Both the position numbers and the translations under genes were made by a program. Shown here in pieces: positions 814 to 18,694 of a DNA stretch of 21,066 nt. The notes under the pieces were generated by a model that saw nothing but the letters and a program-made list of their open reading frames with translations, had not been told where the DNA came from and searched no databases. The DNA comes from a virus: positions 1 to 21,066 of IMG/VR virus record IMGVR_UViG_3300007074_001457; one strand, given 5' to 3'. The first letter of the stretch is position 1, and the number at the start of each line of letters is the position of its first letter.

Positions 814-1025
814 GAACATTTGATTCAAGTGATATGACAAGATGGGATAAAAGGTTTATATGACGGAACGTAAAACACACAAGTCTTTAGCTGATGTGTA
901 GTTTATGAAATTAAACGTATTTCGTCTAATCACGGGAAACCATTATATTTGATGATACATATGATGAACAACCGGAGTTTTTAACCAAATCTAGAATTTC
1001 TAAATTAGAAGATTTGTTAAATTAA
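810..1025 (+). pseudogene. Decayed coding stretch with overlapping micro-frames
   Basis: No intact gene fills this gap. An ATG overlaps the nadV stop (810) and gives 17 codons ending at 863. Another ATG overlaps that stop (860) and gives 13 codons ending at 901. A third frame then runs to a stop at 1023-1025 and ends in a plausible protein tail (KSRISKLEDLLN), running into the convergent gene's stop. The frame changes suggest a small gene broken by several indels. It could equally be non-coding AT-rich filler; no family is recognised. Confidence 0.3.
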
Positions 1026-1795
1026 CTATCAAAATCGATAGAGTTACCAAACTCATCTTCATCACCGGTATTCTGTGAATCTCTTTCCGTAGGATTAACT
1101 AAATCCGAGTCTTCATCATCCAAGTTATCCATATTATTAACATATTTTTCTAGATGATTGAAAGCTGTATCGAAGGCTTCCATAACTTGTTTTGGTTCTG
1201 TTCCATACAAACCCATAATATCATCACCAAGTTTTATTATCTCACTGGAAAGTCTTTCATCAGGTATATCGAATAATAATTTATCTACAATAAACTCAGT
1301 AACCTTTTTATCATAAGGTCTTAGAACATTTTCTAATTCGGCAACAAGTCTGTTCATATGGTCTTTTGAGTAATCCGAGTCTCGTGAGTAAGCATCAAAA
1401 TGATTTTGAATACTTTCAATTTTACTTTTAATGTCTTGAATAGAGTGTCTAGTAATCGAACTGTCATAATGGCCGTTTTCCGACACACCTAGAATTCCTT
1501 GAACACTCTTTTCTATTATTTCAAGACCTTCTTCTACACTTTTAATCTTTCTTTTATTTTCATTCTCTTTCACATATCCTTTTTCGACATCCATTTCACA
1601 CACATAAGAACTATCAAGTTTTAACTTATCATGACTCAAATATACATGTAATAACCCATTTTCTTGGATATCCCAGTGAAATATATATTTTTCGAAATTA
1701 GAAACAAGATCTTTTATTTCCGACATTTTAGCATCGATTAAATCACTAAATTCATTAGTTTTATATTCGTTGAATGTTATTAAATATTTATACAT
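1022..1795 (-). CDS. Unknown phage protein with N-terminal tag-like peptide and acidic tail
   Basis: I do not recognise a family. The 257-aa protein starts MYKYLITFNEYK, similar to the first residues of several other proteins in the window. Residues of about 10-105 form a mixed alpha/beta domain ending in SVEEGLEIIEKSVQGILG. This closely resembles the C-terminus of the gene just upstream (NNLRDCLDVIEKAVRGAIK), so the two probably share a domain. The rest is helical, and the last 40 residues are rich in Asp, Glu, Asn and Ser and look disordered. It follows the 1806-2144 gene by 10 bases on the same strand, which suggests one transcript. It may be a packaged protein, judged only from the N-terminal peptide. 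Confidence 0.7.
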   Translation of the reverse strand: MYKYLITFNEYKTNEFSDLIDAKMSEIKDLVSNFEKYIFHWDIQENGLLHVYLSHDKLKLDSSYVCEMDVEKGYVKENENKRKIKSVEEGLEIIEKSVQGILGVSENGHYDSSITRHSIQDIKSKIESIQNHFDAYSRDSDYSKDHMNRLVAELENVLRPYDKKVTEFIVDKLLFDIPDERLSSEIIKLGDDIMGLYGTEPKQVMEAFDTAFNHLEKYVNNMDNLDDEDSDLVNPTERDSQNTGDEDEFGNSIDFDS

Positions 1796-1805
1796 AACTA
1801 TTAAT

Positions 1806-2144
1806 TTATTTTATAGCTCCACGAACAGCCTTTTCAATAACATCAAGACAATCTCTTAAATTATTAACATCTACACGCTCACCATTTTCGAATAAGATAG
1901 ATGATTGACCATTGATGGTCCATTCCTTGCTTCCAAAACTTGGATTACTAATATCGGTTAAGGAACACACCATCTCAAAAGAACTCCCAGTTGGATCCTT
2001 TTTCGTACATGTGAATAGAATATTTCCCTCAGCATTAGATGATAAAGATTCTAATTCTTGAAATCTTGATTTCATAAGTTTTGTTGCGTCTACAACACTA
2101 TCCCCATATTCCTCAAAAAATTTTATCAATCTACTCATAAACAA
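1806..2144 (-). CDS. Small unknown protein, probable paralogue of the next gene
   Basis: This 112-aa protein is of unknown function. Two ATGs are possible (MFM...). The second gives MSRLIKFFEEYGDS, matching the short N-terminal peptide seen in neighbouring genes, so the true start may be 2138. The body looks beta-rich (strands around FTCTKK, FEMVCSLTD and SILFENG) and ends in an amphipathic helix, LRDCLDVIEKAVRGAIK, that resembles residues of about 87-105 of the downstream gene. It is transcribed away from the sliding clamp; the 43-base gap between the two must hold both promoters. The upstream A/T-rich leader contains no Shine-Dalgarno sequence. Confidence 0.65.
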   Translation of the reverse strand: MFMSRLIKFFEEYGDSVVDATKLMKSRFQELESLSSNAEGNILFTCTKKDPTGSSFEMVCSLTDISNPSFGSKEWTINGQSSILFENGERVDVNNLRDCLDVIEKAVRGAIK

Positions 2145-2169
2145 ATCCTATTTTAAAGTATATATTAAG

Positions 2170-2177
2170 TATAAATA
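2170..2177 (+). promoter_or_regulatory. TATAAATA box, T4 late-promoter-like
   Basis: TATAAATA is the consensus late promoter of T4, read by the phage sigma factor gp55 together with the gp45 clamp. Here it lies 10 bases before the start codon of the clamp-like gene, in the divergent gap. The same octamer occurs inside several genes of this AT-rich window, so position is the only support. Confidence 0.2.
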
Positions 2178-2187
2178 ACCACAATAA

Positions 2188-2967
2188 ATGACAACTAAGA
2201 ATATCACATTCGAATTCGTTCCAGAGAACTTTGATGAGTTTAGAAGAAAATTAAAAGATTTGACACGTTTGAGCGATAACATTAAGTTATCAATAACTGA
2301 CGATAAAATATTTATATACTCAATATTAGGCTCATCTCAGATAGTATTGGCTATGAAATCTTACCAATTGGATAGAATTGATTTCATAGAATCAAATAAC
2401 AGTATCGAACACACAATCGATTGTATTATACTCGGTGCTAAGAAATTTGTTAAGAACATAGATTTTGTTAAAACGAATGAGAAGATTAAATGTAAGGTGA
2501 CCTATAAGATATTTGATGATGATAGAACTGAGGTTAGACAATTTCAATTAACTAGTGGTAAGTTAAAATTGAAAGTAGAAACCGGAGATAGAAATGAGAT
2601 TAAGAATATAACAAAGGAACAGATGAATGAAACTTTGGATCCAAGTAAAAAAGAATGGAGCTTTGATGTTAATGAATCTGACTTCACCGATATTTCAAAA
2701 CTTTCCAAGATAAATACAGATGAGTCCAAAAGAATATTGAATATTAATGCCGAAAACAATACCGTTAAATTGTCCGAAGACGGGTTGTGGGAAATGGAGG
2801 TCGCTGATACAGATCAACCAGACTCTCATATAATGATTAATAAGAATCATCTACCTATGATTGATACATCAGGTACAGATATTACTTTCAACGTATTTAG
2901 GAACTTTATATTCGTTGAGGGAGAGAATTCTAAGCTAATGATAAGCTTCGAACAGACATTTAATTAA
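2188..2967 (+). CDS. 45: DNA polymerase sliding clamp, gp45-like
   Basis: This is probably the ring-shaped processivity factor that tethers the phage DNA polymerase to the template and, in T4, also activates late transcription. The 259-aa protein is a little longer than T4 gp45 (228 aa). It shows the alternating strand and short-helix pattern of a clamp. The C-terminal strands (NFIFVEGENSKLMISFEQ) align with the end of T4 gp45, where FEGE is followed by a hydrophobic strand. There is no catalytic motif, as expected. An internal charged stretch (residues of about 135-190) may be an interdomain linker. The start ATG follows an A-rich leader without Shine-Dalgarno. The assignment is from sequence resemblance only; a structure prediction would settle it. 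Confidence 0.65.
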   Translation: MTTKNITFEFVPENFDEFRRKLKDLTRLSDNIKLSITDDKIFIYSILGSSQIVLAMKSYQLDRIDFIESNNSIEHTIDCIILGAKKFVKNIDFVKTNEKIKCKVTYKIFDDDRTEVRQFQLTSGKLKLKVETGDRNEIKNITKEQMNETLDPSKKEWSFDVNESDFTDISKLSKINTDESKRILNINAENNTVKLSEDGLWEMEVADTDQPDSHIMINKNHLPMIDTSGTDITFNVFRNFIFVEGENSKLMISFEQTFN

Positions 2968-3129
2968 AATAAACAAAAAAGGACGTAATAAGATAAATAG
3001 TTATCTAGAAACTATCAAATATTAAAGTTTATCATCAGTTAAAAATACAACATATTAAAACAAAAATAACAATATAGACATAATTAAGTATATCATTACA
3101 TAGAGAGGCTCTTAAGTAATATATAATTT

Positions 3130-3357
3130 GTGATTGAACATAAGTTATATAATACTTTCGTCTATTATCTCGAAGATAAAAAAAGACATTTAAAACTAAC
3201 ACATACTTGGCTTATTCTAGCCAAAGTATCTGAATTTAACTTTTATACTTTCTTATACGAATTCAAAACAGATTTAAATCTAAGAACTCGAATAATCGAA
3301 ACACATCGATTAGAAAAACTAAACCAATTATTATATGAAGTTAATAGATCAGAGTAA
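3130..3357 (+). CDS. Small unknown protein (75 aa)
   Basis: Starts at GTG; no better start is visible. The protein is rich in aromatic residues and lysine (FVYYLEDKKRHLKLTHTWL, FNFYTFLYEFKTDL) and is predicted to be mostly helical, without signal peptide or clear membrane span. It is the first gene of a four-gene plus-strand cluster and overlaps the next by 23 bases, which suggests coupled translation. The 162 bases before it hold no gene; they are A-rich, with a short 6-bp inverted repeat (ATAGTT/AACTAT) around 2998-3017. Function unknown. Confidence 0.5.
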   Translation: MIEHKLYNTFVYYLEDKKRHLKLTHTWLILAKVSEFNFYTFLYEFKTDLNLRTRIIETHRLEKLNQLLYEVNRSE

Positions 3358-3673
3358 TCATATCAAATACTATGAGGGATTAGATGTAAATAGAATGAAA
3401 AACCATCCAAACGATGGATCAAAAGGACTGATGATAATATTTTTTGACTCAATGGAGAAGGAACAAAAGAAGTATGAACGATCTCGGAAAATATCAAACA
3501 TATTATGGAGTGAGAATTATACTAATTTCAATAATCTAATTGATAGTTTAAAAAATAGTTACTTAGTTATATACGAAACAAAAGGATATACCGATGTCAC
3601 ATACCGAGGTGTTAAAAGTAAAATGGAGACACAGGGATCAACCTGGTCGGCTATATCTGGTATCGCATATTAA
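3335..3673 (+). CDS. Unknown protein (112 aa), tag-like N-terminus
   Basis: Unknown function. It starts inside the end of the preceding gene (23-base overlap). Residues 8-16 (NHIKYYEGL) resemble the short aromatic-x-E peptide at the start of other proteins here; if that is the true tag the start annotation may be slightly long, but no closer start codon is visible. The middle is charged and helical (MEKEQKKYERSRK) and the C-terminal part looks like short strands ending in SGIAY. It lies 11 bases before the next gene in the same cluster. Confidence 0.55.
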   Translation: MKLIDQSNHIKYYEGLDVNRMKNHPNDGSKGLMIIFFDSMEKEQKKYERSRKISNILWSENYTNFNNLIDSLKNSYLVIYETKGYTDVTYRGVKSKMETQGSTWSAISGIAY

Positions 3674-3684
3674 ATATATAACAT

Positions 3685-4155
3685 ATGAGACATCTAATGA
3701 GATATGAAGGATTTTCACACTCTGACCGGGCCGATGAGGTGTTAGATAAGATACATAAATATGGTATAGAATCCATAACACCTGAAGAAAGACAGTTCAT
3801 GGACTCATATAAAACTGGTGAGGAGGAAGAAATACATCACAAATTAACAAAGATGGAAAACGAAGTAGTCTTTGAACATGATACCTTACCAATAAAGTTT
3901 CAACTTAGTGAGGTAAAATATTTAGGTGAAATTAAACAACTAATCGGAATTATTTACGTATCAGATATAACGCTTGATAACGGCAAAGAGATATCTGGGA
4001 GATTAGAGGGTATGATTATTACCAATGATCAGACTGGTGAGATATCTGCCGACTTTTCAAAAGATGAATATGATATATTTGACTTCTGTGAAGGACTTGA
4101 ACACGAACTAGATTCTTTTTTAGAGTATGTCGTAAGTGAAGTTGAGTCAATGTGA
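3685..4155 (+). CDS. Unknown acidic protein with tag-like N-terminus and DUF6576-like motif
   Basis: The 156-aa protein begins MRHLMRYEGF, one of the clearest copies of the N-terminal peptide shared by several genes in the window. Residues of about 17-44 (DEVLDKIHKYGIES, then TPEERQFMDSY) match the pattern of the small helical DUF6576 motif that I know from Bacteroidota proteins, often at the C-terminus of rhomboid proteases (ILDKI..kGIdSLT.eE..fL). The rest is a beta-rich acidic domain (IGIIYVSDITLDNG, GRLEGMIITNDQTG) followed by an acidic helix. It sits between two cluster genes with gaps of 11 and 19 bases. Role unknown; host-protein mimicry or packaging are only possibilities. Confidence 0.65.
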   Translation: MRHLMRYEGFSHSDRADEVLDKIHKYGIESITPEERQFMDSYKTGEEEEIHHKLTKMENEVVFEHDTLPIKFQLSEVKYLGEIKQLIGIIYVSDITLDNGKEISGRLEGMIITNDQTGEISADFSKDEYDIFDFCEGLEHELDSFLEYVVSEVESM

Positions 4156-4174
4156 GAAAAATTAATATTAATTA

Positions 4175-4987
4175 ATGGGTAGAATTATAGAGAGCACTAC
4201 ACAAGGAGAGAGTATCGATAAAGATGATTTGTTTCACAAGATACGACCACTAGGAAGGTGGATAAGTAAAGAATTAGGTATGAGAGATGTTATTGATGAA
4301 ATGACATTACCACACAGAACACCACCCCCACAAAAACAATTAGATAAATTCTATAAAGGAATAGAGATTCTGGAACGAACATCCATGCCACTTAACTTTA
4401 TCAGAACACAGAAGAACCGCTCAAAAGATATGATGTTGGTTTACAACGAAAAAGGCAAATGGGACTATGTTAACAAGTTAAATACAAACTATTCCGATAC
4501 AGCTTTACTATTAGCCGAATTAATAGTTAGGATTTTCAATGATAATCCGGTCAAAGGACTCGAAGCCTATAAAGAAATTTTACAAAATCCAAAATTAGGA
4601 TTACTTAAATTAAAGCCAATAATGAGTGAGTTATTTAAGAAACATTTCACATTTACTGACCTACAAGCTTCTGTTAACGAGATTAAGAAATTCTCTAAGA
4701 GAGGTGAGGAAGCTGAGGAAACAGTAATTGAGTGGTTGGAATATTTAGGATATGAAATTGCATACACTGGTGGTAATGGAGATATGATTGATATGTTATT
4801 CGGGACAGATATTATTGTTAGAACACCCGATCATAAATATTTCACAATACAAGTTAAGAAATCAAAAATGGATTTAAATGAATTAGATTATCTACACGTA
4901 GATTGGATAGTATTTGTTGAGCCAGTTATAAGTGTTTATAACAAGGTTTCCGGAGTTGAGATACCGGAACATGAGTTGATGGTATAA
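4175..4987 (+). CDS. PD-(D/E)XK-type nuclease-like protein
   Basis: The N-terminal 165 residues form an unrecognised helical domain. The C-terminal part has a restriction-endonuclease-like core: a helix with E179 (GEEAEETVIEWLEYLG), then GDMIDMLFGTDII with D203, D206 and D212, a loop, and a strand FTIQVKKSK with Q226 and K228. This is the E...D...(E/Q)xK arrangement of PD-(D/E)XK nucleases; Q in place of the usual E is known in the fold. It would cut or process DNA, perhaps host DNA, unmodified DNA or replication intermediates; the target is not deducible. It is the last gene of its cluster, and its stop codon lies in the loop of a strong hairpin. Confidence 0.6.
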   Translation: MGRIIESTTQGESIDKDDLFHKIRPLGRWISKELGMRDVIDEMTLPHRTPPPQKQLDKFYKGIEILERTSMPLNFIRTQKNRSKDMMLVYNEKGKWDYVNKLNTNYSDTALLLAELIVRIFNDNPVKGLEAYKEILQNPKLGLLKLKPIMSELFKKHFTFTDLQASVNEIKKFSKRGEEAEETVIEWLEYLGYEIAYTGGNGDMIDMLFGTDIIVRTPDHKYFTIQVKKSKMDLNELDYLHVDWIVFVEPVISVYNKVSGVEIPEHELMV

Positions 4988-4999
4988 CCATCAACTCAT
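4971..4999 (+). terminator. Perfect 12-bp hairpin over the stop codon
   Basis: Arms ATGAGTTGATGG (4971-4982) and CCATCAACTCAT (4988-4999) pair perfectly around the 5-base loop TATAA, which contains the stop codon of the upstream gene. An A/T-rich stretch follows, but no long T run, so termination strength is uncertain. The outer 8 bp are the same as those of the hairpin at 13854-13886. Confidence 0.7.
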
Positions 5000-5025
5000 T
5001 ATTTAAATAAATAAAATTAATAATT

Positions 5026-5493
5026 TTGAATATTATAAAATTAGTATATTGGATATACAAAGAAAAAAGTCAACATTTCATATCAGTTCAATCACATATA
5101 TGGGATAAATGGAAAATATTAATTTCGATAGCTATTTGGATGAATCCAAATTACAAGAAATCTATAATACATCGTAAAAGGTATAAAAGATTACGAAATT
5201 TCGTTGTTATCGGACTCAAATGGAGTGGTAAAAACGTAAAGAGAAGAACTTCTGGGTACGCCAAGGAGTATATCAAAAAACACCGAAACACACACTGTGT
5301 ATACTGTGAATGTAGTATTACCGAAGAAAACGCCACAACTGATCACATTATACCCATATCAAAAGGTGGTAATAACTCAAAAGTTAATCTAATGATATGT
5401 TGTTTTGATTGTAACAATGACCGCGGAGATTTAGACTATTCAAAATACTTATCAAAGAAAAATCCAAATAGAAAGGCAGATGATTTCATTTAA
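5026..5493 (+). CDS. HNH endonuclease (probable homing endonuclease)
   Basis: The C-terminal half carries a complete zinc-HNH module: C91-x2-C94, the catalytic D106-H107 in TDHIIP, N121 in the following helix, and C126/C129 with CNN in place of the last histidine (HNN variant). The N-terminal 80 residues are basic and aromatic and probably bind DNA. It most likely makes a double-strand break or nick that spreads its own gene, as free-standing HNH genes do in T4-type phages. The start is TTG. It lies 38 bases after the nuclease gene and directly behind a strong hairpin, in keeping with insertion between a terminator and the next gene. Confidence 0.85.
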   Translation: MNIIKLVYWIYKEKSQHFISVQSHIWDKWKILISIAIWMNPNYKKSIIHRKRYKRLRNFVVIGLKWSGKNVKRRTSGYAKEYIKKHRNTHCVYCECSITEENATTDHIIPISKGGNNSKVNLMICCFDCNNDRGDLDYSKYLSKKNPNRKADDFI

Positions 5494-5533
5494 CCAGAAT
5501 ACCTATTTTTAATAATCTAATATAAAATTCATA

Positions 5534-5827
5534 ATGTATGATAGGAGATATATGGATTTATTCCTTAGTGATAAACCATTAGTGTGGCGTGAAGATTTTG
5601 AACAACATTCCGAGTATTTTATAAAAATAGATTTATCAATTGTTGAGATGATTTACAAACCAAAATTCTCAGAAAAGATAATCGGAATTACGCAACACAA
5701 TCGAGTGATTAATATATTTTTCGTGACGACATCGGGGATCCAACGAATGTGTACTAAATATATCCGAACCGACAGATTCAAATCACTATATAGAAATATA
5801 GTGATAGATAAACTACTCAACAGCTAA
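5534..5827 (+). CDS. Small unknown protein (97 aa)
   Basis: The protein MYDRRYMDLFLSDKPLVWRED... has no recognised domain. Beta strands are likely around KIIGITQHNRVINIFFVTT, with a basic helical C-terminus. It sits between two endonuclease genes, 40 bases after the HNH gene. Its 3' end contains a perfect 9-bp inverted repeat. It may belong to the inserted DNA or be an ordinary phage gene that flanks it. Confidence 0.5.
   Translation: MYDRRYMDLFLSDKPLVWREDFEQHSEYFIKIDLSIVEMIYKPKFSEKIIGITQHNRVINIFFVTTSGIQRMCTKYIRTDRFKSLYRNIVIDKLLNS
5783..5804. repeat. 9-bp perfect inverted repeat inside the gene end
   Basis: TCACTATAT (5783-5791) and ATATAGTGA (5796-5804) flank the 4-base loop AGAA. It is within the last codons of the 97-aa gene and could form an RNA hairpin near its 3' end. 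Confidence 0.55.
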
Positions 5828-5888
5828 AGACTGATATGTTTCTATACCACAAGGAAAGAGTATAGGAAATTAGCATTATATGAGATTC

Positions 5889-7547
5889 TTAATTTTTCAA
5901 ATCGATATCTTCATTAATAAATACCCATTTAGAACTACCACAATCCCACAACCTAAAATACCCCCTTTCATGCATTATTTCAATCTCTGTTTTGTGTATA
6001 TCATACCCCTGAGAAACCAATTTATCCTTTCTGAAGTTAAATCTGTGACACCTTCGTTTATCAACTACCCAATAATAATTTGGTACTGTATTTGAGATGC
6101 GTTTAAACCCAATCATTTTATACAATGATCCATCATATCTAGATGTGTCAGCGTAGCTTATTATACACAGTGGTTTGTAATTTTTCAAAAAATATTTGAA
6201 TAACCTGGAAGCACCACCAACAACAACAGTATTAATCTTATTACAAAATCTTAACATCTCATAATGACCTTCAACAGAAGAGTGACCAAGTGATTTACGC
6301 AAATTTCCAAAATTCATAAAACAAACCAATTCATCATTATGGAATAGTCCTAATTTTACTTTTGATCCTATAAACCCCTGTAAGTGATTGGTATCTAAAA
6401 ACTCACGTATAATATTATTATCTTTAATCAATCTAACTTCACAAGTTCTACCATATATTCTTTTGGGTGTTTTACCAATCTTATTTAGGATTATGGATTT
6501 AACTATATCCGTTTTATAAACCCAATCATCTTCCCATATATGTAAAAGTTTAATACCATTATCCTCACAAGATAATGTTTTGTCTAAATGATATGTATTT
6601 TTTTTATATATCTCAGAATGCCAATATAACCCGTTGAACTCAATACCAACCTTTAAATCCGATATATATATATCCAATTCCATACCAGATAAGACAGTTC
6701 TATTATTCAAATCACAACTGATGTGTTCGGATATGAAATTAAACACTTCATTTTGTTTTACATTTTGTTTTAAAGGATTACAACCCGTACAAACCACATC
6801 ACACTTAAATATCCTTTTATTTCTCAAAGATGTTAATATTTTAAAGTCATTTTTACACTCAATACAATTTATCACATACTCACCATTTTTGGATGATTTT
6901 AAAACACCAATATCCGATAGTTTTTCATACATTTTTTCATACCACTTTTCACGAACTCCTTTCTTAAAATCTTCCGTCTTTGAAAAATTACACACACCAT
7001 ACCTATACATGCACGTATTAACCATCTTATTCAATATGTCTGGATTCATAGATGGGTACTCATATCCAAATTTTTTAATATTCGTATTTTTCACCTTATC
7101 CTTAACCTTCTTAGATGATGATGGATACCTTACCCCATATTTAACAAGTGATGTTTTTCCGGCCAGTTCCCTATTGTTATAATTACCATCACCATATTTA
7201 TTATATTTAGTCTCCTTTATAATACTTTTAACGGATTCGATTTGGAATGTATTCTCAACTCCATATTTTCGTAAATTAGTTTCCTTGGTTTTTATCAACA
7301 CACACACCCGTGAACAGGCAAATTTAAATTCACCAACATTTGTCTGTTTATTATAATCTTTAATAGATATTTCTTTTTTACAAGAACAGTAATCACATTT
7401 AGCGTTAATTTTAATACTGGATCCCTTTGTTATATACAAACTGGATACCGTAACAAAATCACCAATCGATCCATAACCCAGTATATTACTATAATAGGAC
7501 ACATTCTTATTGGATAATTTAATTCTAATATCTTCTGGTATTATCAT
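5889..7547 (-). CDS. Large Vsr-like homing endonuclease with zinc module and repeated KYG motifs
   Basis: A 552-aa modular endonuclease. Residues 1-85 contain a zinc-ribbon-like module (CDYC at 51-54; C78 and C82). Residues of about 90-190 hold five repeats of a (K/R)(Y/F)G unit at about 94, 117, 136, 159 and 182, a DNA-reading array seen in phage homing endonucleases. A second zinc finger follows (C228/C231, C249, C253/C256). The nuclease core is Vsr/EDxHD-like: E290, D292 (GMELDIYI), E303 and H310 (GIEFNGLYWHSE), and HIWEDDW at 336-342. The C-terminal 200 residues form a further domain (GRTCEVRLI, GGASRLFKYFLK). It lies 77 bases downstream of the primase gene on the same strand and probably moves by cutting that locus. 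Confidence 0.85.
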   Translation of the reverse strand: MIIPEDIRIKLSNKNVSYYSNILGYGSIGDFVTVSSLYITKGSSIKINAKCDYCSCKKEISIKDYNKQTNVGEFKFACSRVCVLIKTKETNLRKYGVENTFQIESVKSIIKETKYNKYGDGNYNNRELAGKTSLVKYGVRYPSSSKKVKDKVKNTNIKKFGYEYPSMNPDILNKMVNTCMYRYGVCNFSKTEDFKKGVREKWYEKMYEKLSDIGVLKSSKNGEYVINCIECKNDFKILTSLRNKRIFKCDVVCTGCNPLKQNVKQNEVFNFISEHISCDLNNRTVLSGMELDIYISDLKVGIEFNGLYWHSEIYKKNTYHLDKTLSCEDNGIKLLHIWEDDWVYKTDIVKSIILNKIGKTPKRIYGRTCEVRLIKDNNIIREFLDTNHLQGFIGSKVKLGLFHNDELVCFMNFGNLRKSLGHSSVEGHYEMLRFCNKINTVVVGGASRLFKYFLKNYKPLCIISYADTSRYDGSLYKMIGFKRISNTVPNYYWVVDKRRCHRFNFRKDKLVSQGYDIHKTEIEIMHERGYFRLWDCGSSKWVFINEDIDLKN

Positions 7548-7624
7548 ATACTATATATTAAAAAATACATACTCATATACCCGTATATACACCAATTACA
7601 CATATACATATCTCACAACACCAA

Positions 7625-8803
7625 TTAAAAATCATTCTCACGGAATTTTCTTTCATAATCAATCTCTTCACGATTGGGTTTCCACTTATTTTTGGGTATC
7701 CACTTAGCATCGAAAACATCATCAGAGAAATAATTTTCTAATTTCAATTTACTATATGGTAGTGGGACCAATTCAGCTAACTTATTCAAATCTTTAACCT
7801 GAGAGATTCGGTGGTATAATTTATATGGGTCAGAACCTTTCTTACGTTCTACAATATCTTCGAATAGTTTCAACCATAAGAATATATGACCACCCATAGA
7901 TATCTTCTCTAATGACTTCTTAAACCCTGCTGAATCATTATCATAGAAGTACTGCAAGTCGATATCATTACTTTCGAGGAATTTGAGGTCGGTATTAACA
8001 CCCACAACTCCGATAGAATTTGGATAAAATAACGCATCTAAATATCCCTCGAACAGAGTTACCGTAGAGGATAGATTAACATTGAGTATATTGAAGAAAT
8101 AACTCAACTTGTTATAAACAATCATTTGATGAGCATCCATTTCATTATCAGGATTTACCCATTCAGATAATGTCTCATAATTATAAATTACAAAGAATCT
8201 CCTTCTACCCTTTCTTAGATTCCTAACTTGAATACCCAATACCCGATCCTCTCTACGATTCAATAGAACAATAACATGTTCAAATCCTTCATCACCCTTC
8301 GAATACTTTGCTTGATAGATGTTGGTGTGTTTATCCTCAGTGATACCACGACCAGTTAGGTATTTATATATTCCACCATTTTTAACGATAGGTTCAAAAT
8401 CATATATTGGACTCACCTTCTTAACATTGAAGGCGTGTGTCAGTTCTTCGAGTGATATTAAATCATCAAACTTAGTATCGATGAAATCGTCCTGATAATC
8501 ATTATAGGTTATGTTATTATTGAGATGTTCAATAATCTCCATTTTCTTATCAGGGTCCAAGACTTCATTAAAATCTTTAGCAAACTTATCGAATCCCGTT
8601 TTTTTATCACAACGAAAACACACAAACAATAATTTATTATAATAAACATTACCTCTTTTTTTCGTTTTAGTTCTACCTTCATGGCAATATGGACACCTAA
8701 ACTGCACACGGTCATGGTGATGTGTTATCACAACCCGCTCCATTCTATCCGAAAATTCCTTATTTATTATGTTCGTTACTATACTCTGTATGTACTTTTC
8801 CAT
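7625..8803 (-). CDS. DNA primase, T4 gp61/DnaG-like
   Basis: This enzyme makes RNA primers for lagging-strand synthesis at the phage fork, normally with a replicative helicase such as gp41. An N-terminal zinc ribbon is formed by C37/C40 (CPYC) and C62/C65 (CFRC). The TOPRIM core shows E252 in the strand LFEGYLDALF, then D288 and D290 in YDNDSAG, the metal-binding residues. Length is 392 aa against 342 for T4 gp61. Between them lies a basic segment (RKGRRRFF, residues of about 197-204). The start ATG at 8803 is preceded 33 bases upstream by TATATTTG (minus strand), a fit to the Bacteroidota -7 box. Endonuclease genes flank it on both sides. Confidence 0.88.
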   Translation of the reverse strand: MEKYIQSIVTNIINKEFSDRMERVVITHHHDRVQFRCPYCHEGRTKTKKRGNVYYNKLLFVCFRCDKKTGFDKFAKDFNEVLDPDKKMEIIEHLNNNITYNDYQDDFIDTKFDDLISLEELTHAFNVKKVSPIYDFEPIVKNGGIYKYLTGRGITEDKHTNIYQAKYSKGDEGFEHVIVLLNRREDRVLGIQVRNLRKGRRRFFVIYNYETLSEWVNPDNEMDAHQMIVYNKLSYFFNILNVNLSSTVTLFEGYLDALFYPNSIGVVGVNTDLKFLESNDIDLQYFYDNDSAGFKKSLEKISMGGHIFLWLKLFEDIVERKKGSDPYKLYHRISQVKDLNKLAELVPLPYSKLKLENYFSDDVFDAKWIPKNKWKPNREEIDYERKFRENDF

Positions 8804-8812
8804 ATCAATTAT

Positions 8813-9031
8813 ATGATTTGTGTAAATCTAAGTTTCAAATATAATATATGTATTGAATATGATGGCGAGCATCATTTTAAAAGTGTTTCTAAGTATGGTG
8901 GTGAAAGTTTTCTAGAAAAAGTTAAAAAGTACGATAAGATAAAAAATGAATGGTGTTCGAAAAACAAAATCAGATTAATAAGAATACCATATACTGAGAA
9001 ATCTAGAATATTTGAAGTATTGAATGAGTAG
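8813..9031 (+). pseudogene. C-terminal remnant of an endonuclease
   Basis: Only about 72 codons are left. They encode CIEYDGEHHF, then KVKKYDKIKNEWCSKNKIRLIRIPY, the strand-loop-helix-strand end of a PD-(D/E)XK-type nuclease common in phage homing endonucleases (IEYDGEQHY...DxxKNxYC...IRIPY). The N-terminal zinc and DNA-reading modules and the preceding acidic catalytic region are absent. The frame extends backward over the primase start region on the opposite strand, where it reads as unrelated sequence, so the ATG at 8813 is nominal. It looks like the stump of an endonuclease once inserted between the primase and the 615-aa gene. Confidence 0.7.
8836..8843 (-). promoter_or_regulatory. Possible Bacteroidota-type -7 promoter box for primase
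   Basis: On the minus strand this reads TATATTTG, matching the TAnnTTTG box used by the primary sigma factor of Bacteroidota. It lies about 33 bases before the primase start. No clear -33 TTG element was confirmed, and A/T richness makes chance matches likely. Confidence 0.25.
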
Positions 9032-9035
9032 TTGC

Positions 9036-10883
9036 TTAATATTCATAGTTGAATGTAAACAATGCTTCAGGATTTTGTATTATCTTATGTCTTTGTATTA
9101 AGGCGAAATTATACATAGTCCAAGCTAACTTATGTGACTTCGTAGTACCCTCACTCATTATCAAATCATATAAATCACTCGACAACATATCACTATACGG
9201 ATTCATTTCATCGGTAATCACCAAGTTATTAAATCCTCTATATGAATATTCTGCTTGATTACACATAACTTTCTCTATATCATTTACACCAATAACACAA
9301 TGTAGTATTAAAAAAAATCTAAGACAAGTGTGGAAATCTTCCTTCTTACGATCCTTGAAATATATTGGTATTGTTTTAAAATCAAATGTACCAGACCTAT
9401 TTCCGGTCATTAACATTTTATCAAAATCGGTATAATCTATCTCATCTGTTTTTATATGTTTAGCTAATTCCTCGATTGATAGTATTTTCACACGCTTAGC
9501 AATCCAATCAGATATAGACACACCATCAACCTCATCAGTTATTAAATGGTATTTCTTACCAATTGGATCAAATATAACATCTTTCACTAAGGATTTAACA
9601 TCCTCACCACCTTGAATAGTATCCACTAAAACCGATTTCATTCCTATGGGTATAAAATCAGTCATTTGTGTATCATTATTCCAGTATTTAACCGTTTTAT
9701 CTCTGGGTAACCAATCCTCTAATAAGTCAGAATATTCCGATTCATCTGCATGGTAATAACCACCGAAATATTTAGAACTTACTACCTCTTCTGCCGATTC
9801 TGGATACCAGACACCATCAAAATCTAATTTAATTGAATTATCCCTATTCAACCATCCATAAATTATCGATTCAACAGCTTCATCTTCTTCTAACCATTCT
9901 CTCTCATGCTCAGACCAAATTCCTCCCGACCTTGCAGTACCATCAGCACTTTTCAATTTTAAAATGTTATCATCCGGAAATTCATGCATGTTATAAAGTT
10001 TCCCACTCTCAGTGTTTATAAATTTGAAAGTATCTAAATATGGCCATTTATCAAATTTGAAAGATGTTAATTGTACTGTTATGGTTTGATTTTTTAAATT
10101 ATGTAATGGCACTAACTTATTTTCGTGTTCATAAGCCTTGAATAACCTTTGAACTGGTTCATCAGAAAAATATATTCTATCCATAACAATACCTTTATCT
10201 GTTTTCCATATCAAAGCTCGTCCAGAAATTTTCCCTTTCCTTTGCGATTTCAAAATAAGTAGACTACACACATCTGTATTTTCACAATAGAGATCAATCC
10301 ATTCCTGACACTTCGATTTTCTCATACACGAATTACCAAGATCACCTTGGTCAGACACATAATTATCTTCTAGATACCATTTTCGTATATTTTCACCAGT
10401 AACAACTTCGAAATTCTCAAACTTACTATCCGATACATTATGTATTATGTCATAATTTATTTTATATAAAAGCACAAATTCCTCAGTTTCTGTACCAGTG
10501 GTACCCAATCCGATTATCTTATCAATCTTATTTAAAAATTTTCCGACCTTAACCGGATTTCTCATTCGACTCCAAACTACAGATTTAGGATTATCATATT
10601 CTTCTGATATCCAATCCTTAAAAGCCAATTTCGAACCAGACTGGTTATATAGTTGTCCTATTTTACCAACATGTATGAAAGTAACCATATCATTTCTATT
10701 GGATATATTGATGTAGGTCATGTCGGATTTTACATCACGCCCGTGACTCATTAATATTGAAGATGCGTTGACATTACCATCATTCTTCATCTGTTCTAAA
10801 ATCATCCTCAAATCGATGGATAAATAAAAGGGTATATCATTACTTATTGTCTCAACAATAAATTCATTAAAATTTTTATACAT
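9036..10883 (-). CDS. Unknown 615-aa protein with capsid-targeting-like N-terminus
   Basis: Function unknown. The N-terminus MYKNFNEFIVE|T is strikingly like the capsid-targeting peptide of T4 internal proteins (MKTYQEFIAE), including a hydrophobic-x-Glu site where the T4 prohead protease would cut. This suggests the protein is packaged in the head and injected. Further on is a conserved-looking block GNSCMRKSKCQEWIDLY, then CSLLILKS and GRALIWKTDKG, a cysteine-containing segment and two strands. Residues of about 330-560 are acidic with many Trp and Tyr. There is no signal peptide or membrane segment. It shares a divergent 40-base promoter gap with the metallophosphoesterase. Confidence 0.75.
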   Translation of the reverse strand: MYKNFNEFIVETISNDIPFYLSIDLRMILEQMKNDGNVNASSILMSHGRDVKSDMTYINISNRNDMVTFIHVGKIGQLYNQSGSKLAFKDWISEEYDNPKSVVWSRMRNPVKVGKFLNKIDKIIGLGTTGTETEEFVLLYKINYDIIHNVSDSKFENFEVVTGENIRKWYLEDNYVSDQGDLGNSCMRKSKCQEWIDLYCENTDVCSLLILKSQRKGKISGRALIWKTDKGIVMDRIYFSDEPVQRLFKAYEHENKLVPLHNLKNQTITVQLTSFKFDKWPYLDTFKFINTESGKLYNMHEFPDDNILKLKSADGTARSGGIWSEHEREWLEEDEAVESIIYGWLNRDNSIKLDFDGVWYPESAEEVVSSKYFGGYYHADESEYSDLLEDWLPRDKTVKYWNNDTQMTDFIPIGMKSVLVDTIQGGEDVKSLVKDVIFDPIGKKYHLITDEVDGVSISDWIAKRVKILSIEELAKHIKTDEIDYTDFDKMLMTGNRSGTFDFKTIPIYFKDRKKEDFHTCLRFFLILHCVIGVNDIEKVMCNQAEYSYRGFNNLVITDEMNPYSDMLSSDLYDLIMSEGTTKSHKLAWTMYNFALIQRHKIIQNPEALFTFNYEY

Positions 10884-10897
10884 AATCCTATATATTT

Positions 10898-10909
10898 AAT
10901 AATATAATC
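10898..10909 (+). promoter_or_regulatory. AATAATATAATC intergenic motif
   Basis: AATAATATAATC lies in the divergent gap 15 bases before the phosphoesterase start. The same 12-mer is in the gap at 13109-13120, and its first 11 bases occur 7 bases before uvsW (16663-16673). It contains TATAAT, so it may be a promoter -10 region. Confidence 0.3.
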
Positions 10910-10923
10910 CATATATTTGTACT

Positions 10924-11646
10924 ATGAAATTAAAATTTGATAATGTAATAGCCCTTGGTGATATTCATGGTCATTTTGATGTTATAATCAACCATATTGA
11001 AAAAATTGGTATGGAAAAATCACTCTATATACAAGTAGGTGATTTTGGTATTGGGTTTTATGAGAATGATAAGCAGAACATGACAGTTCTGAATAACAAA
11101 CTCGTGGAGGGTAATAACTTTTTATTTGCTATTCGTGGGAATCACGATGATCCAGATTGGTTCAAAGATGATATGTATGTTGAGTTCAAGAAAACATTGA
11201 CTAACATAAAATTCATACCTGATTACACAGTCATGGATATAAACGATGAAACATATCTCTTCATCGGTGGGGCTGTCTCTATCGATAGAGTTGATCGTAT
11301 TGAGAGAGGTATGGGATGGTTCGAGGATGAAGTAATCAATTTTGATTACAACTTCTGTGAGACTGTAACTGGTATCGATCGAATGGTGTGTCACACATCA
11401 CCAAACTTCAGTCCTCCATTTGCTATACACACTCCCATGATAATGGAACGTACCAAAAAGGATCCGACACTTTTACAAGATCTTGTGAATGAGCGGACAC
11501 AGATTACTAAGATTATCGAAGATATAATGAAGAACAATAAATTGAAGTCTTTTCACTATGGACATTTTCACAAGTCAAGTACTTACCCAGTAGATGGTTG
11601 TGATTTTATCTTACTCGATATAAATGAATTTTTACTTATAGACTAA
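10924..11646 (+). CDS. Calcineurin-like metallophosphoesterase
   Basis: All five metal-binding motifs are present in order: GDIHGH (D13, H15), VGDFG (D40), RGNHDD (N73, H74), CHTSP (H157) and YGHFH (H214, H216). These coordinate a two-metal site that hydrolyses phosphomono- or phosphodiesters. The 240-aa length is a single catalytic domain with a helical insertion near residues 175-205. The substrate cannot be told from the motifs; the fold includes Ser/Thr phosphatases, dinucleotide polyphosphatases and nucleases. In a phage it could remove a nucleotide signal or alter host phosphoproteins, but that is inference. Six bases separate it from the next small gene, so they are probably co-transcribed. 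Confidence 0.9.
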   Translation: MKLKFDNVIALGDIHGHFDVIINHIEKIGMEKSLYIQVGDFGIGFYENDKQNMTVLNNKLVEGNNFLFAIRGNHDDPDWFKDDMYVEFKKTLTNIKFIPDYTVMDINDETYLFIGGAVSIDRVDRIERGMGWFEDEVINFDYNFCETVTGIDRMVCHTSPNFSPPFAIHTPMIMERTKKDPTLLQDLVNERTQITKIIEDIMKNNKLKSFHYGHFHKSSTYPVDGCDFILLDINEFLLID

Positions 11647-11651
11647 ATGAT

Positions 11652-11837
11652 ATGAAATTAAACGGATTAACACTAATGATAATTGGAGTACTTTTTATGG
11701 TACTTGAAGGATATCTATTCGTAAATCACTTCAATATGGTTGATACCACACTTGGTGTTGTCATAGCCATTGCTATACCATCACTTGGAGCATTGTATAT
11801 TATGTATGGTGCTCAGAAATATATGAGAGGAGAGTAA
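11652..11837 (+). CDS. Small protein with two membrane helices
   Basis: The 61-aa protein has two hydrophobic stretches, residues of about 6-24 (LTLMIIGVLFMVLEGYLF) and 32-54 (TLGVVIAIAIPSLGALYIMYG), separated by a short polar loop and ended by a basic tail (QKYMRGE). It should be a hairpin in the inner membrane. It follows the phosphoesterase by five bases. Its stop codon abuts the stop of the convergent HAD-like gene. Possible roles such as lysis timing or superinfection exclusion cannot be distinguished. Confidence 0.65.
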   Translation: MKLNGLTLMIIGVLFMVLEGYLFVNHFNMVDTTLGVVIAIAIPSLGALYIMYGAQKYMRGE

Positions 11838-13094
11838 TTAATTCGAGTGAGCTTCTGGCTCCTTCGAATCTTCTTTTGCTTGTAAAATGTCTTCTTTGGT
11901 TATCGGATTCATCAAAGCCAATTTATCAGCTTTTATAATATTATCTATATACTGTTTCTCGTTAAATTTAGAGAAATTATTTAAATGTTCCATAACTTTC
12001 TTTTCTTTTCTCTTACCAACTTTCACATTATCAGTAGACTCTTTCTCTTTTTCATCATCTACTATTTCCTTGGCCATCTTAGCCAATTCCCTAGATGATC
12101 TCCTAAGTAGTGTATTACCACCATCATCGTCTTTACTACTATTGGTGTGAGTTTTATCACTCAGTTTACCAAAGTCTTTAAATCCGACTAATGAAGACCG
12201 TAAACCAGCAGTACCACCAACACTAATGTTGGCATTTGATTCAACTGTTCGAACCATCTTAGTTACATTATCCGGATCATTCGTATTTTTAATGACATAT
12301 TCATCAATGTGTGAAAAAGTTTCATGGTCTAGATTGTTTACTAAGTCTTCGATACGTTTAACGTTACTTGGATCATCATCAGAGAATCCTATTTTTGCTG
12401 GTATTCCAATATCCATAGCGTATTTATTAACTTTCTTTTTGAAGGATAACAACGCGTCTTCCTTTCCTTGTTCTGGGTTTGATGCATCACCACCTCTTGA
12501 TGGAGAAGATACACCCACGAAATCACAATAAGATAAATATCTTTTAAAAACCTCATTATCACTCGGAACACCTTTTAACACTCGTGGTAAATGATTAACA
12601 TCCTTACCGTAATCATATTCAAATCTCAATAGATTAGAATACATATCAATTCTCTGTTCCTCTGATAAAAAATTATCAATTATCCATTCAATTCCTAATA
12701 AAATACCCTCTGGCTCGTGACCTCTAGCTGTTATAATTGCAAAAATTGATCCATTGATAAGACATTCTATGAAGTCTTCCCAAGCCGGTCCAAATTGATT
12801 ATTCTCAATTGCTGTTTTAGTATCCTCTAAGAAAGCATTTAACCCCCTCGGACCGTTGTCACGGAATTCCGAGAAGGCTTTATCAGGATCATTTTCTACA
12901 ATCCTGTAATTTTGCTTACTTCTTACCTTCACAAACTCAGTGGTCGAAACATCAACTGGTACCCAAGTACCACCTTTATTTTCTTCCATATGTATTTTAG
13001 TATCCATATATAATAAATTATCATCAACATCAAATGCGTAGTAAAGAATATATTCAGGAACTTCAAATTCCTTATATTTTAGGTGCTTAGACAT
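11838..13094 (-). CDS. HAD-superfamily-like hydrolase with tag-like N-terminus
   Basis: Residues 1-245 show the HAD motifs: FDVDDN (D22, D24) for nucleophile and acid/base, TARG (T122) for motif II, K211 in GKEDALLSFKKK for motif III, and SDDD (D239-D241) for metal binding. This fits a phosphatase acting on small phosphates, phosphopeptides or nucleic-acid ends. The cap region between motifs I and II is about 95 residues. The protein starts MSKHLKYKEF, like other tagged proteins here. Residues 280-418 are Ser-, Lys- and Asp-rich and look disordered, and contain a second tag-like copy at 368-379 (MEHLNNFSKFNE). It may therefore be packaged and processed. Convergent with the membrane peptide gene. 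Confidence 0.68.
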   Translation of the reverse strand: MSKHLKYKEFEVPEYILYYAFDVDDNLLYMDTKIHMEENKGGTWVPVDVSTTEFVKVRSKQNYRIVENDPDKAFSEFRDNGPRGLNAFLEDTKTAIENNQFGPAWEDFIECLINGSIFAIITARGHEPEGILLGIEWIIDNFLSEEQRIDMYSNLLRFEYDYGKDVNHLPRVLKGVPSDNEVFKRYLSYCDFVGVSSPSRGGDASNPEQGKEDALLSFKKKVNKYAMDIGIPAKIGFSDDDPSNVKRIEDLVNNLDHETFSHIDEYVIKNTNDPDNVTKMVRTVESNANISVGGTAGLRSSLVGFKDFGKLSDKTHTNSSKDDDGGNTLLRRSSRELAKMAKEIVDDEKEKESTDNVKVGKRKEKKVMEHLNNFSKFNEKQYIDNIIKADKLALMNPITKEDILQAKEDSKEPEAHSN

Positions 13095-13120: not shown

Positions 13121-13163
13121 TACCTTGGATTTGGACGAGTCAGTTGTTTTATATATACTTTTA

Positions 13164-13857
13164 ATGTATTCAGATAAAAAGGTTGATATTAAAATTTCTA
13201 AAAGAAATTTTGAGTATTATAAAGGTAAGGGTTATGTATCTACATTACAGGAAATAATTACTATTAAATGTTGTGATATATCACAAACAGTATCAACTAA
13301 AATATATGTAATTTGTGAGTTCTGTAAACAAGAGAGATATATCAAATCTCTGAATTATCACAACCAAATAAAAAAAAAAAAATTTATATGCTTGCTCATC
13401 ATGTAGTAAATATGGCGTAAATGTTTCGAAATTAAACTATATTAAAAAAAAGAAAGAGGAAACCACAATGAGACATTATGGTGTTGTGAATCCATCACAT
13501 TCTCCGGAATTATTCGAAAAAGCACAAAAGTCTGGTAAAAAAATAAAAATGCACGAAACAGGTATTATGTATAGAGGTACATATGAGCAAAATTTCCTTG
13601 ACTTCTGCCTATCCAATAATATTAATGTGTTGAAAGGTAATAGTGTGAAATATAAGTTTGAAGGTAAAAATAGAATCTACCACTCAGACTTCCTAATTAA
13701 GGAATATAATCTAATATGTGAAATAAAATCCAAATATTATTACGATAAGTATTATGATAAAAATATAGCAAAAGAAAAAGCATCTATATCCGAGGGATAT
13801 GATTTCATTTTCATAATCGATAAGAATTATCAAAAATTTATAGAAAAATTTATATGA
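13164..13857 (+). pseudogene. Homing endonuclease split by a frameshift in a 13-A run
   Basis: Two frames together encode one endonuclease. The first starts best at ATG 13164 (MYSDKKVDIKISKRNFEYYKG) rather than the upstream TTG at 13125, carries CEFC, and stops at 13404-13406. After the A13 run (13370-13382) a +1 frame gives ACSSCSKYG, supplying the second half of the zinc ribbon, then a RHYGVVNPS repeat. The nuclease core is HSDFLIKEYNLICEIKSK, a PD-(D/E)XK pattern. The first 85 residues align with those of the endonuclease at 5889-7547, but the nuclease domain differs. The break may be real, a homopolymer sequencing error, or bypassed by polymerase slippage. It ends at a strong hairpin. Confidence 0.78.
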
Positions 13858-16680: not shown

Positions 16681-18213
16681 ATGAAGTTTAAATATGATAA
16701 AGTTAAGGAAGAACTTGTTGTTACAGAAGCATCAAGAATAGAATATCACCAATTGGAAATATGGTTATCTAGAAATGTGAAGGGGTACCGATTTATGCCT
16801 GCTTATAAAATGGGTATATGGAATGGTCAAAATTCATATTTTAGAGATGGTCATGTAAATCTAGGACTCTGGAAAGAATGTTTAAAAGCCGCCAAGGAAA
16901 TTGGTGCAAATTTTCAGGTTGAGAATAAAGAAGATTTTCCATTAAATAGAGAAGTTACGATGAATAGTGTTAGGGAATTCTGTGATGAATTTTTTAATAA
17001 ACATAAAGTTAAAAATAAAGATGGTGGGTGGTCAGACTTTATGCCTTACGACCATCAGATTGATACTGCTTTTAAGATATTAAAAAATAGATATTGTATG
17101 GCTGAGGTTGCCACTTCTGGTGGTAAATCACTCATAATATCAATTGTTATATTTTACACTCTTAAAAACCTAAACCCGGATGCTAAGTTTTTGATGATTG
17201 TACCATCAATTACACTGGTCACACAGTTCTACGATAACTTACTCGAATATAATTATGGTGAGCAAACCCTGGCCGAAGTTAAAGATGATAAATTAGAAGA
17301 ACTACTTGTTGGTGGTGAGGGAAAACCTTCAATGCCATGTACTCTTAGAATAGAAGAAGTTATGTCTGATAAACCAAGAAAACATTCTGGTGTTAAAGAT
17401 GCTAATATCTACATCGGTACTTACCAATCACTAGAGAAGTGGCCAAAAGAATTCTTCAAACAATTTCATACAGTTGCTTGTGATGAAGCTCACGGGGCTA
17501 AGGCCCAGACAACACTAACCATATTGAAAAAAACAATTGGACACGCCTATTCAAGATTTGGTGTTTCTGGTACATTTCCACCTGATGATTCTTGTGAAAT
17601 ACTCACAATACAATCTGTATTAGGTCCAAAAATTACAGAAGTATCAGCAACTCATTTGAAAGAAAAAGGTATCATAACACCGATGAAAGTAAAGGCGGTT
17701 ATAATGAACCATGCTGATCCATCTTTCGAAAGACAAATGGAAGAAATACGTAGAGGAGGATTGGGTAAAGAAGTTTTAAACTTCGAGAAGAAATACATAC
17801 AAGAATCTGTCAAACGAAAAGATATCATAAGTAAGATAGTAAAACGATGTGATAAGAACACACTTATACTTTTTCACTCAATCGAACATGGTGAGTCATT
17901 ATTGAAATACCTTACTAATGAATGTCCTGATAAAGAGTTCTATTATATTGATGGTTCTGTTAAGAACAAGCAGAGAGAAATCATAAAGGCTAAGATGGAA
18001 GAAACACAAACAAAAGTGGAATATACCATTTTAAATTTTGGTAGATATGAAATTGATGTGAAATCTGATAAAATGATATTATTAAGTGATGGTAAGTATA
18101 AAAAAGCCAGTGATATAAATAAAAATGATGATATAGATGATAAATTCATCGAAACCCTTCGGAATGATATCAAGGGGGTAATAAATGCTGATGAGGATAA
18201 ACGGAAATATTAA
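16681..18213 (+). CDS. uvsW: UvsW-type DNA/RNA helicase, N-terminal part with foreign tail
   Basis: In T4, UvsW unwinds R-loops and branched DNA and drives the switch to recombination-dependent replication. Motifs seen are a Q-like YDHQ (123-126), Walker A TSGGKS (145-150), DEAH (268-271), SGTFP (296-300) and the start of the second RecA domain (LILFHS, 396-401; YYIDGS, 421-426). Similarity ends at about residue 446 (TKV). The last 64 residues (including KSDKMILLSDGKYKKASDINKNDD) are unrelated to UvsW and look like an intein/Hint-type strand pattern. Motifs V and VI are absent here and found downstream in a separate fragment. Alone this product should lack helicase activity. Confidence 0.85.
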   Translation: MKFKYDKVKEELVVTEASRIEYHQLEIWLSRNVKGYRFMPAYKMGIWNGQNSYFRDGHVNLGLWKECLKAAKEIGANFQVENKEDFPLNREVTMNSVREFCDEFFNKHKVKNKDGGWSDFMPYDHQIDTAFKILKNRYCMAEVATSGGKSLIISIVIFYTLKNLNPDAKFLMIVPSITLVTQFYDNLLEYNYGEQTLAEVKDDKLEELLVGGEGKPSMPCTLRIEEVMSDKPRKHSGVKDANIYIGTYQSLEKWPKEFFKQFHTVACDEAHGAKAQTTLTILKKTIGHAYSRFGVSGTFPPDDSCEILTIQSVLGPKITEVSATHLKEKGIITPMKVKAVIMNHADPSFERQMEEIRRGGLGKEVLNFEKKYIQESVKRKDIISKIVKRCDKNTLILFHSIEHGESLLKYLTNECPDKEFYYIDGSVKNKQREIIKAKMEETQTKVEYTILNFGRYEIDVKSDKMILLSDGKYKKASDINKNDDIDDKFIETLRNDIKGVINADEDKRKY

Positions 18214-18351: not shown

Positions 18352-18694
18352 ATGGCAAGAATAATCGATAAAAGAAAAGAAATTAGAGAAGAAGGGGCGA
18401 CTAAGGTATTAGTTGCCTCTTATTGAGTACGGGACATTAAGTACGGGAGTCTCAATTAAAGCTATTTTTAACGTCATATTTGCTGACTCTTTCAAGTCTG
18501 AACAGATTATCATACAATCTATCGGTAGAGCTCTTAGACTACATAAGGATAAGGCAACTGCCATGATATTCGACCTTGTTGATATATTTACAGATGTGAA
18601 TCCGAATAACATATTATACAGGCACTTCATGGAACGTAAGAAGTTTTATAAAAATAGAGAATATCCCTATTCAGTTAAAAAGATAATCTTATAA
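18352..18694 (+). pseudogene. uvsW: uvsW C-terminal fragment (motifs V and VI), frameshifted
   Basis: An ATG at 18352 opens 24 codons ending ATKVLVASY and TGA (18424). The next frame continues the same protein with YGTLSTGVSIK (motif V), QSIGRALRLHK (motif VI arginine finger) and a C-terminal tail to 18694. Intact UvsW reads VLVASYGTLSTG, so a 7-base insertion at about 18424-18430 explains the shift; AGTACGGGA occurs twice here (18426-18434, 18440-18448), pointing to a templated slip. Its upstream part (REEGATKV) repeats the end of the N-terminal piece (MEETQTKV), so both pieces overlap in sequence content. It lacks a normal start for motif V to VI unless translation begins at TTG 18413. Confidence 0.75.

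Follow-up and report, generated by a model that had tools for sequence, protein, structure and literature searches.

A short N-terminal leader on proteins of Mahaphage-type huge phages as a probable capsid-targeting sequence of the T4 kind

The 21,066 bases of IMG/VR record IMGVR_UViG_3300007074_001457, which make up the complete record and are called the window below (guanine-plus-cytosine content about 31%), encode several proteins that begin with a similar short peptide, and the question raised by this locus is what the shared N-terminus is for. A first-pass annotation had listed six otherwise unrelated proteins with this peptide and had likened it to the capsid-targeting sequence (CTS) of phage T4, which is cut by the prohead protease. 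Comparison with related genomes makes a leader of this type, directing proteins to the prohead core, the probable explanation.

In the phage collection the window matches best with LR745206.1 (635 kb), LR756502.1 (642 kb) and LR756504.1 (636 kb), and two longer contigs of 46.8 and 62.5 kb are near-identical to it. The three genomes fit the Mahaphage clade of huge phages. The largest members of this clade are predicted to infect Bacteroidetes (PMC7162821). By similarity, the window would come from a phage of Mahaphage type that is related to the largest bacterial viruses known. No head module is present within its 21 kb, and the head genes were therefore examined in the relatives.

Genes of LR745206 were called crudely (all open reading frames (ORFs), longest first, ATG starts), and their N-termini show strong position-wise biases at residues 2–11 and none at residues 12–22. 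Two motif forms are found, M-K-[YH]-[LI]-K-x-[FY]...E↓S and M..[KR]-[YF]-x-x-F-[IL]-x-E↓[SNA], the arrow marking the predicted cleavage site; C1, the commoner form, is a looser relative of the T4-like core form C2; MIKKYLDFIKES and MKYLKKFNES are leader sequences. The gain of a motif model is 950 log units; with shuffled residues it is 270–340 and with internal Met starts 180. The patterns C1, C1E and C2 were fixed on this genome, where they match 113 of 891 (6.6 expected), 91 (1.3) and 31 (1.3) N-termini; since they were partly derived from it, the independent test is their unchanged application to other genomes. There the three patterns yield, in the same order, 95, 82 and 18 matches in LR756502 (expected 3.2, 1.7 and 1.4), 32, 14 and 17 in LR756504 (4.5, 1.7 and 1.7), 8, 4 and 32 in the 735 kb phage LR756501 (3.2, 0.7 and 2.0), 27, 24 and 19 in LR756500 (2.8, 0.7 and 0.7) and 15, 9 and 11 in the 249 kb relative G004 (1.6, 0.6 and 0.2). 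Taken together, the patterns cover 138 of the 840 LR745206 genes, 115 of the 579 in the analysed part of LR756502 and 36–45 of about 490–570 in the analysed parts of three other huge phages. Instead of a set of six proteins, roughly 6–20% of the genes in the huge phages examined have the leader.

In the window's own phage, represented by the 62.5 kb contig, 7 of 73 genes match the strict patterns, for which 0.24, 0.48 and 0.0 matches respectively are expected; the seven include MLKKYFEFIVE↓S and MNFLKRYKVFE↓K, both from genes beyond the window. A loose pattern in the manner of the first-pass annotation is only weakly enriched there (15 of 73, 8.9 expected), so that the claimed N-terminal excess over composition is many-fold for the strict patterns in the relatives and slight for the loose one in this phage. 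The residue following the glutamate (P1′) is Ser in 52 of 131 leaders, compared to 7% after Glu generally, and Ser, Asn or Ala is enriched at P1′ in all five huge phages. At the C-termini of LR745206 the bias is mostly towards Lys, Ile, Leu and Arg and no leader-like consensus is found.

LR745206 harbors a T4-type head module with orthologues in five relatives. It contains a probable portal protein, assigned by position, a gp23-type capsid protein (E=7e-26) and one long reading frame in which an S77 prohead protease is joined to the scaffold. The scaffold part contains tandem repeats such as YSEYLAENLDKNI, with cores like YSEYLAE↓N. The core [YFW]-x-x-[FY]-[ILVM]-x-E, which had been fixed before the scaffold sequence was examined, occurs 11, 11, 11, 14 and 11 times in the protease-scaffolds of five phages, where 0.18–0.33 copies are expected. 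Sites of the type [FILVMY]-x-E-[SNAHG] number 21 in the LR745206 scaffold (2.9 expected); in the capsid protein, two lie in residues 1–45 and one in the other 516. The capsid protein sites SINE↓N, QINE↓N, QIHE↓N, QMNE↓N and ELYE↓N share a single column of the alignment, a little ahead of a conserved GMG segment. The leader site agrees with the protease sites of both the scaffold and the capsid protein, with the exception of the LR756500 scaffold.

T4 internal proteins are diverse defence proteins which share only the CTS, and this sequence takes them into the scaffolding core (PMC3012670). In the T4 record AF158101, IpII and IpIII start with MKTYQEFIAE↓A and gp22 with MLKEQLIAE↓A, while gp23 contains SFLTE↓A. 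As in the T4 system, in which IpI–IpIII go together with the gp21 protease and the gp22 core, the huge-phage leader is a peptide of about ten residues at the N-terminus of unrelated proteins; its spacing is identical (MIKKYLDFIKE↓S next to the T4 sequence, with IpII and IpIII fitting C2), and the S77 protease, the scaffold and the gp23-type capsid protein are of T4 type, with similar sites in T4 gp22 and gp23. The T4-like targeting peptide with a prohead-protease site proposed earlier has strong indirect support from the spacing of IpII and IpIII, from the motif-bearing protease-scaffold and from the matching capsid sites. The systems differ in scale, with a handful of internal proteins in T4 and 36–138 carriers per huge-phage genome examined, in the fusion of protease and scaffold with about 11 tandem core copies, and in the dialects and leader swaps described below. 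Packaging and cleavage are proven in T4 and are predicted for the huge-phage carriers.

The proposed mechanism has three steps. The leader would first be taken into the scaffold core during assembly, since it imitates the element that the scaffold itself repeats, aromatic-x-x-aromatic-aliphatic-x-Glu. Judging from the matching sites, the scaffold-fused S77 protease would then cut after the Glu of [ILF]-x-E↓[SNA] in scaffold, major capsid propeptide and leader alike. Finally, the freed cargo would be kept in the mature head and enter the host with the DNA. Targeting, cutting and injection of the carriers are all inferred. In Mahaphages such a system would serve roughly 6–20% of the genes, with its own dialect in each lineage.

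The letters of the leader are specific to the lineage, each having one dialect: MK[YH]LKxFNE↓S and MKxLKxYKxFE↓S in LR745206 and LR756502, MxKKYxxFINE↓A in LR756501 and MKYIKEYEEFILE↓A in LR756500. In the cultured Sphingomonas phage PAU, 17 of 280 proteins (1.1 expected, with a pattern made after inspection) start with MK[TS][LI]xxLYE↓[SA], e.g. MKTLTQLYE↓S. PAU carriers include the annotated scaffold gp152 and the annotated internal capsid proteins gp142 and gp154, and 11 of these 17 map within the group of head genes (P=4e-9). PAU has the same kind of N-terminal leader in a dialect of its own, and its scaffold gene is separate from the protease. A further phage clade (IMG/VR contigs L181–L234), reached via the HAD-motif gene of the window, has the dialect MKxxLTE↓SQYK on 38 of 460 proteins (1.3 expected); this pattern, too, was drawn up after inspection, and the HAD-motif gene itself accounts for many of the 38. 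On these contigs, MKxKLTE↓SQYK is also seen on several other proteins, e.g. MKKLLITESQYKRIFLLEQ.

The carriers share the leader and nothing more. An alignment of 73 of them agrees over MKYLKxF only, a second carrier alignment likewise at the N-terminus only, and 73 random non-carriers aligned as a control show no N-terminal agreement. Leader types are exchanged in two reciprocal-best pairs between LR745206 and LR756502, one of which has MIIKKYIKFINEEFDHL on one member and MKYLRTYEGFDHL on the other at a body identity of 84%. Across the orthologue pairs of these two genomes the presence of a leader is strongly concordant, with 30 cases on both members, 23 on one and 216 on neither, and shared descent contributes to this concordance. 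Carriers are scattered across the entire 635 kb genome of LR745206 and are poor in housekeeping domains: only 16 Pfam families are found among the 73 carriers. An equal number of randomly chosen non-carriers of comparable length, from which any start of the E↓[SNA] type had been excluded, yields 70, with tRNA synthetases, HSP70, gyrase and PhoH among them. Carrier domains include RNA ligase, poly(A) polymerase, NUDIX, methyltransferases, PPK2, radical SAM and an Acb1-like (anti-CBASS-type) 2H phosphoesterase, which is tagged in three Mahaphages and has an untagged second copy in one. As a separate observation, an Acb1-like 2H phosphoesterase and an exonuclease (RNase_T) domain are fused in one protein of LR745206 that bears a leader (448257–449573, minus strand); in LR756502 the two are separate leader-type proteins.

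A variant in which only part of the carriers is packaged, many being helpers of the core or of assembly which are cleaved, disappear in maturation and are never injected, is rather unlikely but retains some weight. Similar sites occur in the T4 core proteins gp22 and gp67, which are annotated as degraded in the prohead, and the clustering of PAU carriers with head genes points the same way; the scatter over the 635 kb genome and the many enzyme domains suited to the host cell (RNA ligase, Acb1-like 2H phosphoesterase, methyltransferases, NUDIX) argue against it. It is improbable that the leader is an address tag which directs proteins elsewhere (to the host membrane, a compartment built by the phage, the ribosome or some host factor) and which the prohead protease leaves uncut. 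Its basic, aromatic and hydrophobic residues 2–6 would also be compatible with membrane or RNA binding, and ribosome binding has been proposed for basic-aromatic N-terminal extensions of phage S21 (PMC7162821), but the same core and Glu site recur in the scaffold repeat and the capsid protein and the leader is found on the PAU scaffold and annotated internal capsid proteins. The N-terminal extension of phage ribosomal protein S21 was considered as an instance of the leader and rejected, as the S21 genes of all five genomes that have one lack it.

A nucleotide-level effect, in which A-rich gene starts aid translation and the peptide has no role, is very improbable. Codons for Lys are rich in A, and a preference for Lys at position 2 also exists in Lak-B5 and PTm1, which have little or no leader. 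Synonymous codons, however, vary freely at the matching gene starts (AAA or AAG, TAT or TAC, CAT or CAC, TTA, TTG, CTA or CTT), which largely refutes this explanation; the signal includes Phe or Tyr at position 7, Phe at 10, Glu at 9 and 11 and Ser after the Glu, and non-carriers of the same genome lack it. The signal is therefore one of the peptide and not of the DNA. That the pattern arose by chance or goes back to a single expanded gene family can be dismissed with near certainty, for although the loose pattern is only weakly enriched in the window phage, one of the six listed cases is false and the family of ORF 9036 is large and paralogous, the strict patterns lie many-fold over expectation in independent sequences and the 73 carriers have only MKYLKxF in common.

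Several points weigh against the capsid-targeting interpretation. Over a hundred protein species packaged in one head would be an unusually high number. Start sites and gene calls are mechanical, the S77 protease match in LR745206 (E=1.1e-4) lies below the curated cut-off, albeit at the expected location, and P1′ is Glu, Lys, Asp or another residue in many C1 leaders, some carriers having no good site. LR756500 has clear leaders but two scaffold core copies only, while Lak-B5 shows a weaker variant (10 matches, 2.8 expected) and PTm1 almost no signal; leader and scaffold repeat thus need not go together. A co-variation of leader dialect with scaffold repeat was looked for and is not seen, LR756500 combining leaders with few repeats.

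In the window itself, all peptides quoted in the first-pass annotation are present, and five of the six are true N-termini (Table 1). Four leaders, those of ORFs 1022, 3685, 9036 and 11838, are backed by orthologues, whose N-termini in many cases conform to the pattern more closely than those in the window; among the five N-termini only those of ORFs 3685 and 9036 match the strict patterns. The proposed site FIVE↓T of ORF 9036 fits the T4-like pattern C2. The peptide NHIKYYEGL of ORF 3335–3673 (plus strand) is a false positive: it starts at residue 8, and HIKYYEGL aligns with the body segment IVKFYDGIDL of the orthologues, about 18 residues in, so that this protein is not a member. ORF 1806 is a weak case; no orthologue is found in the sequences compared except in the near-identical contigs, and it may be a distant paralogue of ORF 1022 (weak similarity, E=0.006). 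Starts of ORF 3685 orthologues are MKHLMRYEGY, MKHLIRFESY and MRRLMIYEEF. The possible short leader of ORF 4175 is unsupported, since no orthologues are found beyond the near-identical contigs.

Table 1. Features of the window (strand as read for the protein; ↓, predicted cleavage site).
Feature	Position	Strand	Basis or remark
Leader MYKYLITFNE of ORF 1022–1795 (N-terminus MYKYLITFNEY)	1766–1795	-	orthologue leaders MIKNWNQFINEN, MIKKWNQFIREF
Possible leader MSRLIKFFEE of ORF 1806–2138 (ATG at 2138, N-terminus MSRLIKFFEEY)	2109–2138	-	sequence only
Leader MRHLMRYE of ORF 3685–4155 (N-terminus MRHLMRYEGF)	3685–3708	+	fits pattern C1E
Possible short leader MGRIIE↓S of ORF 4175–4987	4175–4192	+	fits I-x-E↓S
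ORF resembling homing endonucleases	5889–7547	-	
Predicted cargo, body of the ORF 9036 protein (ORF of 615 residues)	9036–10850	-	large paralogous, weakly GNAT-like family
Leader MYKNFNEFIVE↓ of ORF 9036–10883, followed by T	10851–10883	-	fits pattern C2
Predicted cargo, body of the HAD-motif protein	11838–13061	-	conserved FDWDDNIL, ITARGHE and GFSDDD motifs
Internal leader-like copy MEHLNNFSKFNE in the C-terminal extension of ORF 11838	11958–11993	-	sequence
Leader MSKHLKYKEFE of ORF 11838–13094, HAD-motif protein	13062–13094	-	orthologue leaders; degenerate, exact cleavage point unclear
ORF resembling homing endonucleases	13125–13857	+	
Acidic protein of 95 residues	13897–14184	-	
UvsW-like helicase, apparently split	16681–18213 and 18413–18694	+	

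Two proteins of the window are cargo candidates, and the first 10–15 residues of both are modelled by AlphaFold at very low confidence. The leader of the HAD-motif protein (residues 1–10 at pLDDT 38) itself fails the strict patterns, while nearly all of its orthologues have one (MLLKFNNFIKES, MIKRFESFIEES, MDILRFDQFIRES): a leader with changing letters and a variable linker precede the conserved YYAFDWDDNIL body, and one LR756504 orthologue lacks the leader. At least 582 relatives of this protein are found in IMG/VR, and D22, D24 and D239–D241 are invariant. Its earlier description as a HAD-like hydrolase is in keeping with the conserved HAD motifs, but no Pfam match and no significant Foldseek match to the PDB was obtained. 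The internal leader copy noted earlier is present as MEHLNNFSKFNE but is not kept in orthologues; the C-terminal extension that holds it occurs in the window phage only, and the extension in contig L032 is a different one with TLESFSK.

For the protein of ORF 9036 no Pfam or PHROG family is found. Nearly all top Foldseek matches of its model (pTM 0.36, residues 1–15 of low confidence) are GNAT acetyltransferases, with E-values of 0.02–0.4. Orthologue leaders are MKRFLEFINEN, MLRYEDFIIES, MIQSFLEYIFES and MVKKYFEFINEN, and some paralogues have none. The family has about ten or more members per huge-phage genome, mostly leader-bearing (e.g. L003:40898-42298, L010:16232-18202 and L036:6904-10169), some with DnaJ-like zinc-finger repeats (CxxCxGxG). 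These proteins are possibly GNAT-like effectors. GNAT and ART domains have been reported in injected phage proteins (PMC7824862), which fits such a role by analogy and does not prove it.

Usually directly beside the HAD-motif gene lies the gene of an acidic protein of 95 residues; its C-terminus, LESFTSFVSKRKA in the window, is kept in all orthologues as LESFQ[SA]F[VIF]xK. The protein recalls the acidic T4 core protein gp67, and its C-terminal end might function as a tag in this same system. Elsewhere in the window, a UvsW-like helicase appears split, the end of its first ORF after EETQTKVEYTIL resembling part of an intein or other insertion, and two ORFs between conserved genes resemble homing endonucleases of mobile elements.

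Related arrangements are known from other phages. In the system of the SPN3US/phiKZ type, the prohead protease gp245 removes N-terminal propeptides from several head and ejection proteins with Ser favoured at P1′, yet these propeptides comprise 20–254 residues on eight proteins and are not one short shared tag (PMC10052503). In P1, an N-terminal signal puts the injected counter-restriction protein DarB, and a reporter, into the head, but no consensus common to the Dar proteins was found by the authors (PMC9024508). In the open-licence literature searched, mostly at the level of titles and abstracts, texts on the capsid targeting sequence deal mainly with T4, P1, P22 and SPN3US and none with a Bacteroidetes huge phage, and no paper describing the PAU leader was found; the kind of system is known from T4, while its scale, dialects, tandem scaffold copies and swaps are undescribed in these sources.

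Taken further, the proposal is that Mahaphages, and perhaps the 735 kb phage too, pack about a hundred different proteins into the head by means of one cleavable tag that copies the scaffold repeat, so that the virion would deliver, along with the DNA, a starter proteome for counter-defence and RNA repair and with possible acetyltransferase effectors, its cargo list being readable from the dialects; the chances for and against this wider picture are about even. For most genes of the largest phages no function is known. Should the leader indeed mark proteins for head packaging, a place and a time of action, namely the virion and the first minutes of infection, could be assigned to between several dozen and more than a hundred of these genes in each genome, and the probable cargo list of a virus could be read from its genome. 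The first ten residues would then suffice to pick counter-defence and takeover factors from uncultured phages, and the resemblance of the leader to the scaffold's own repeat provides a testable hypothesis for how targeting peptides are recognized.

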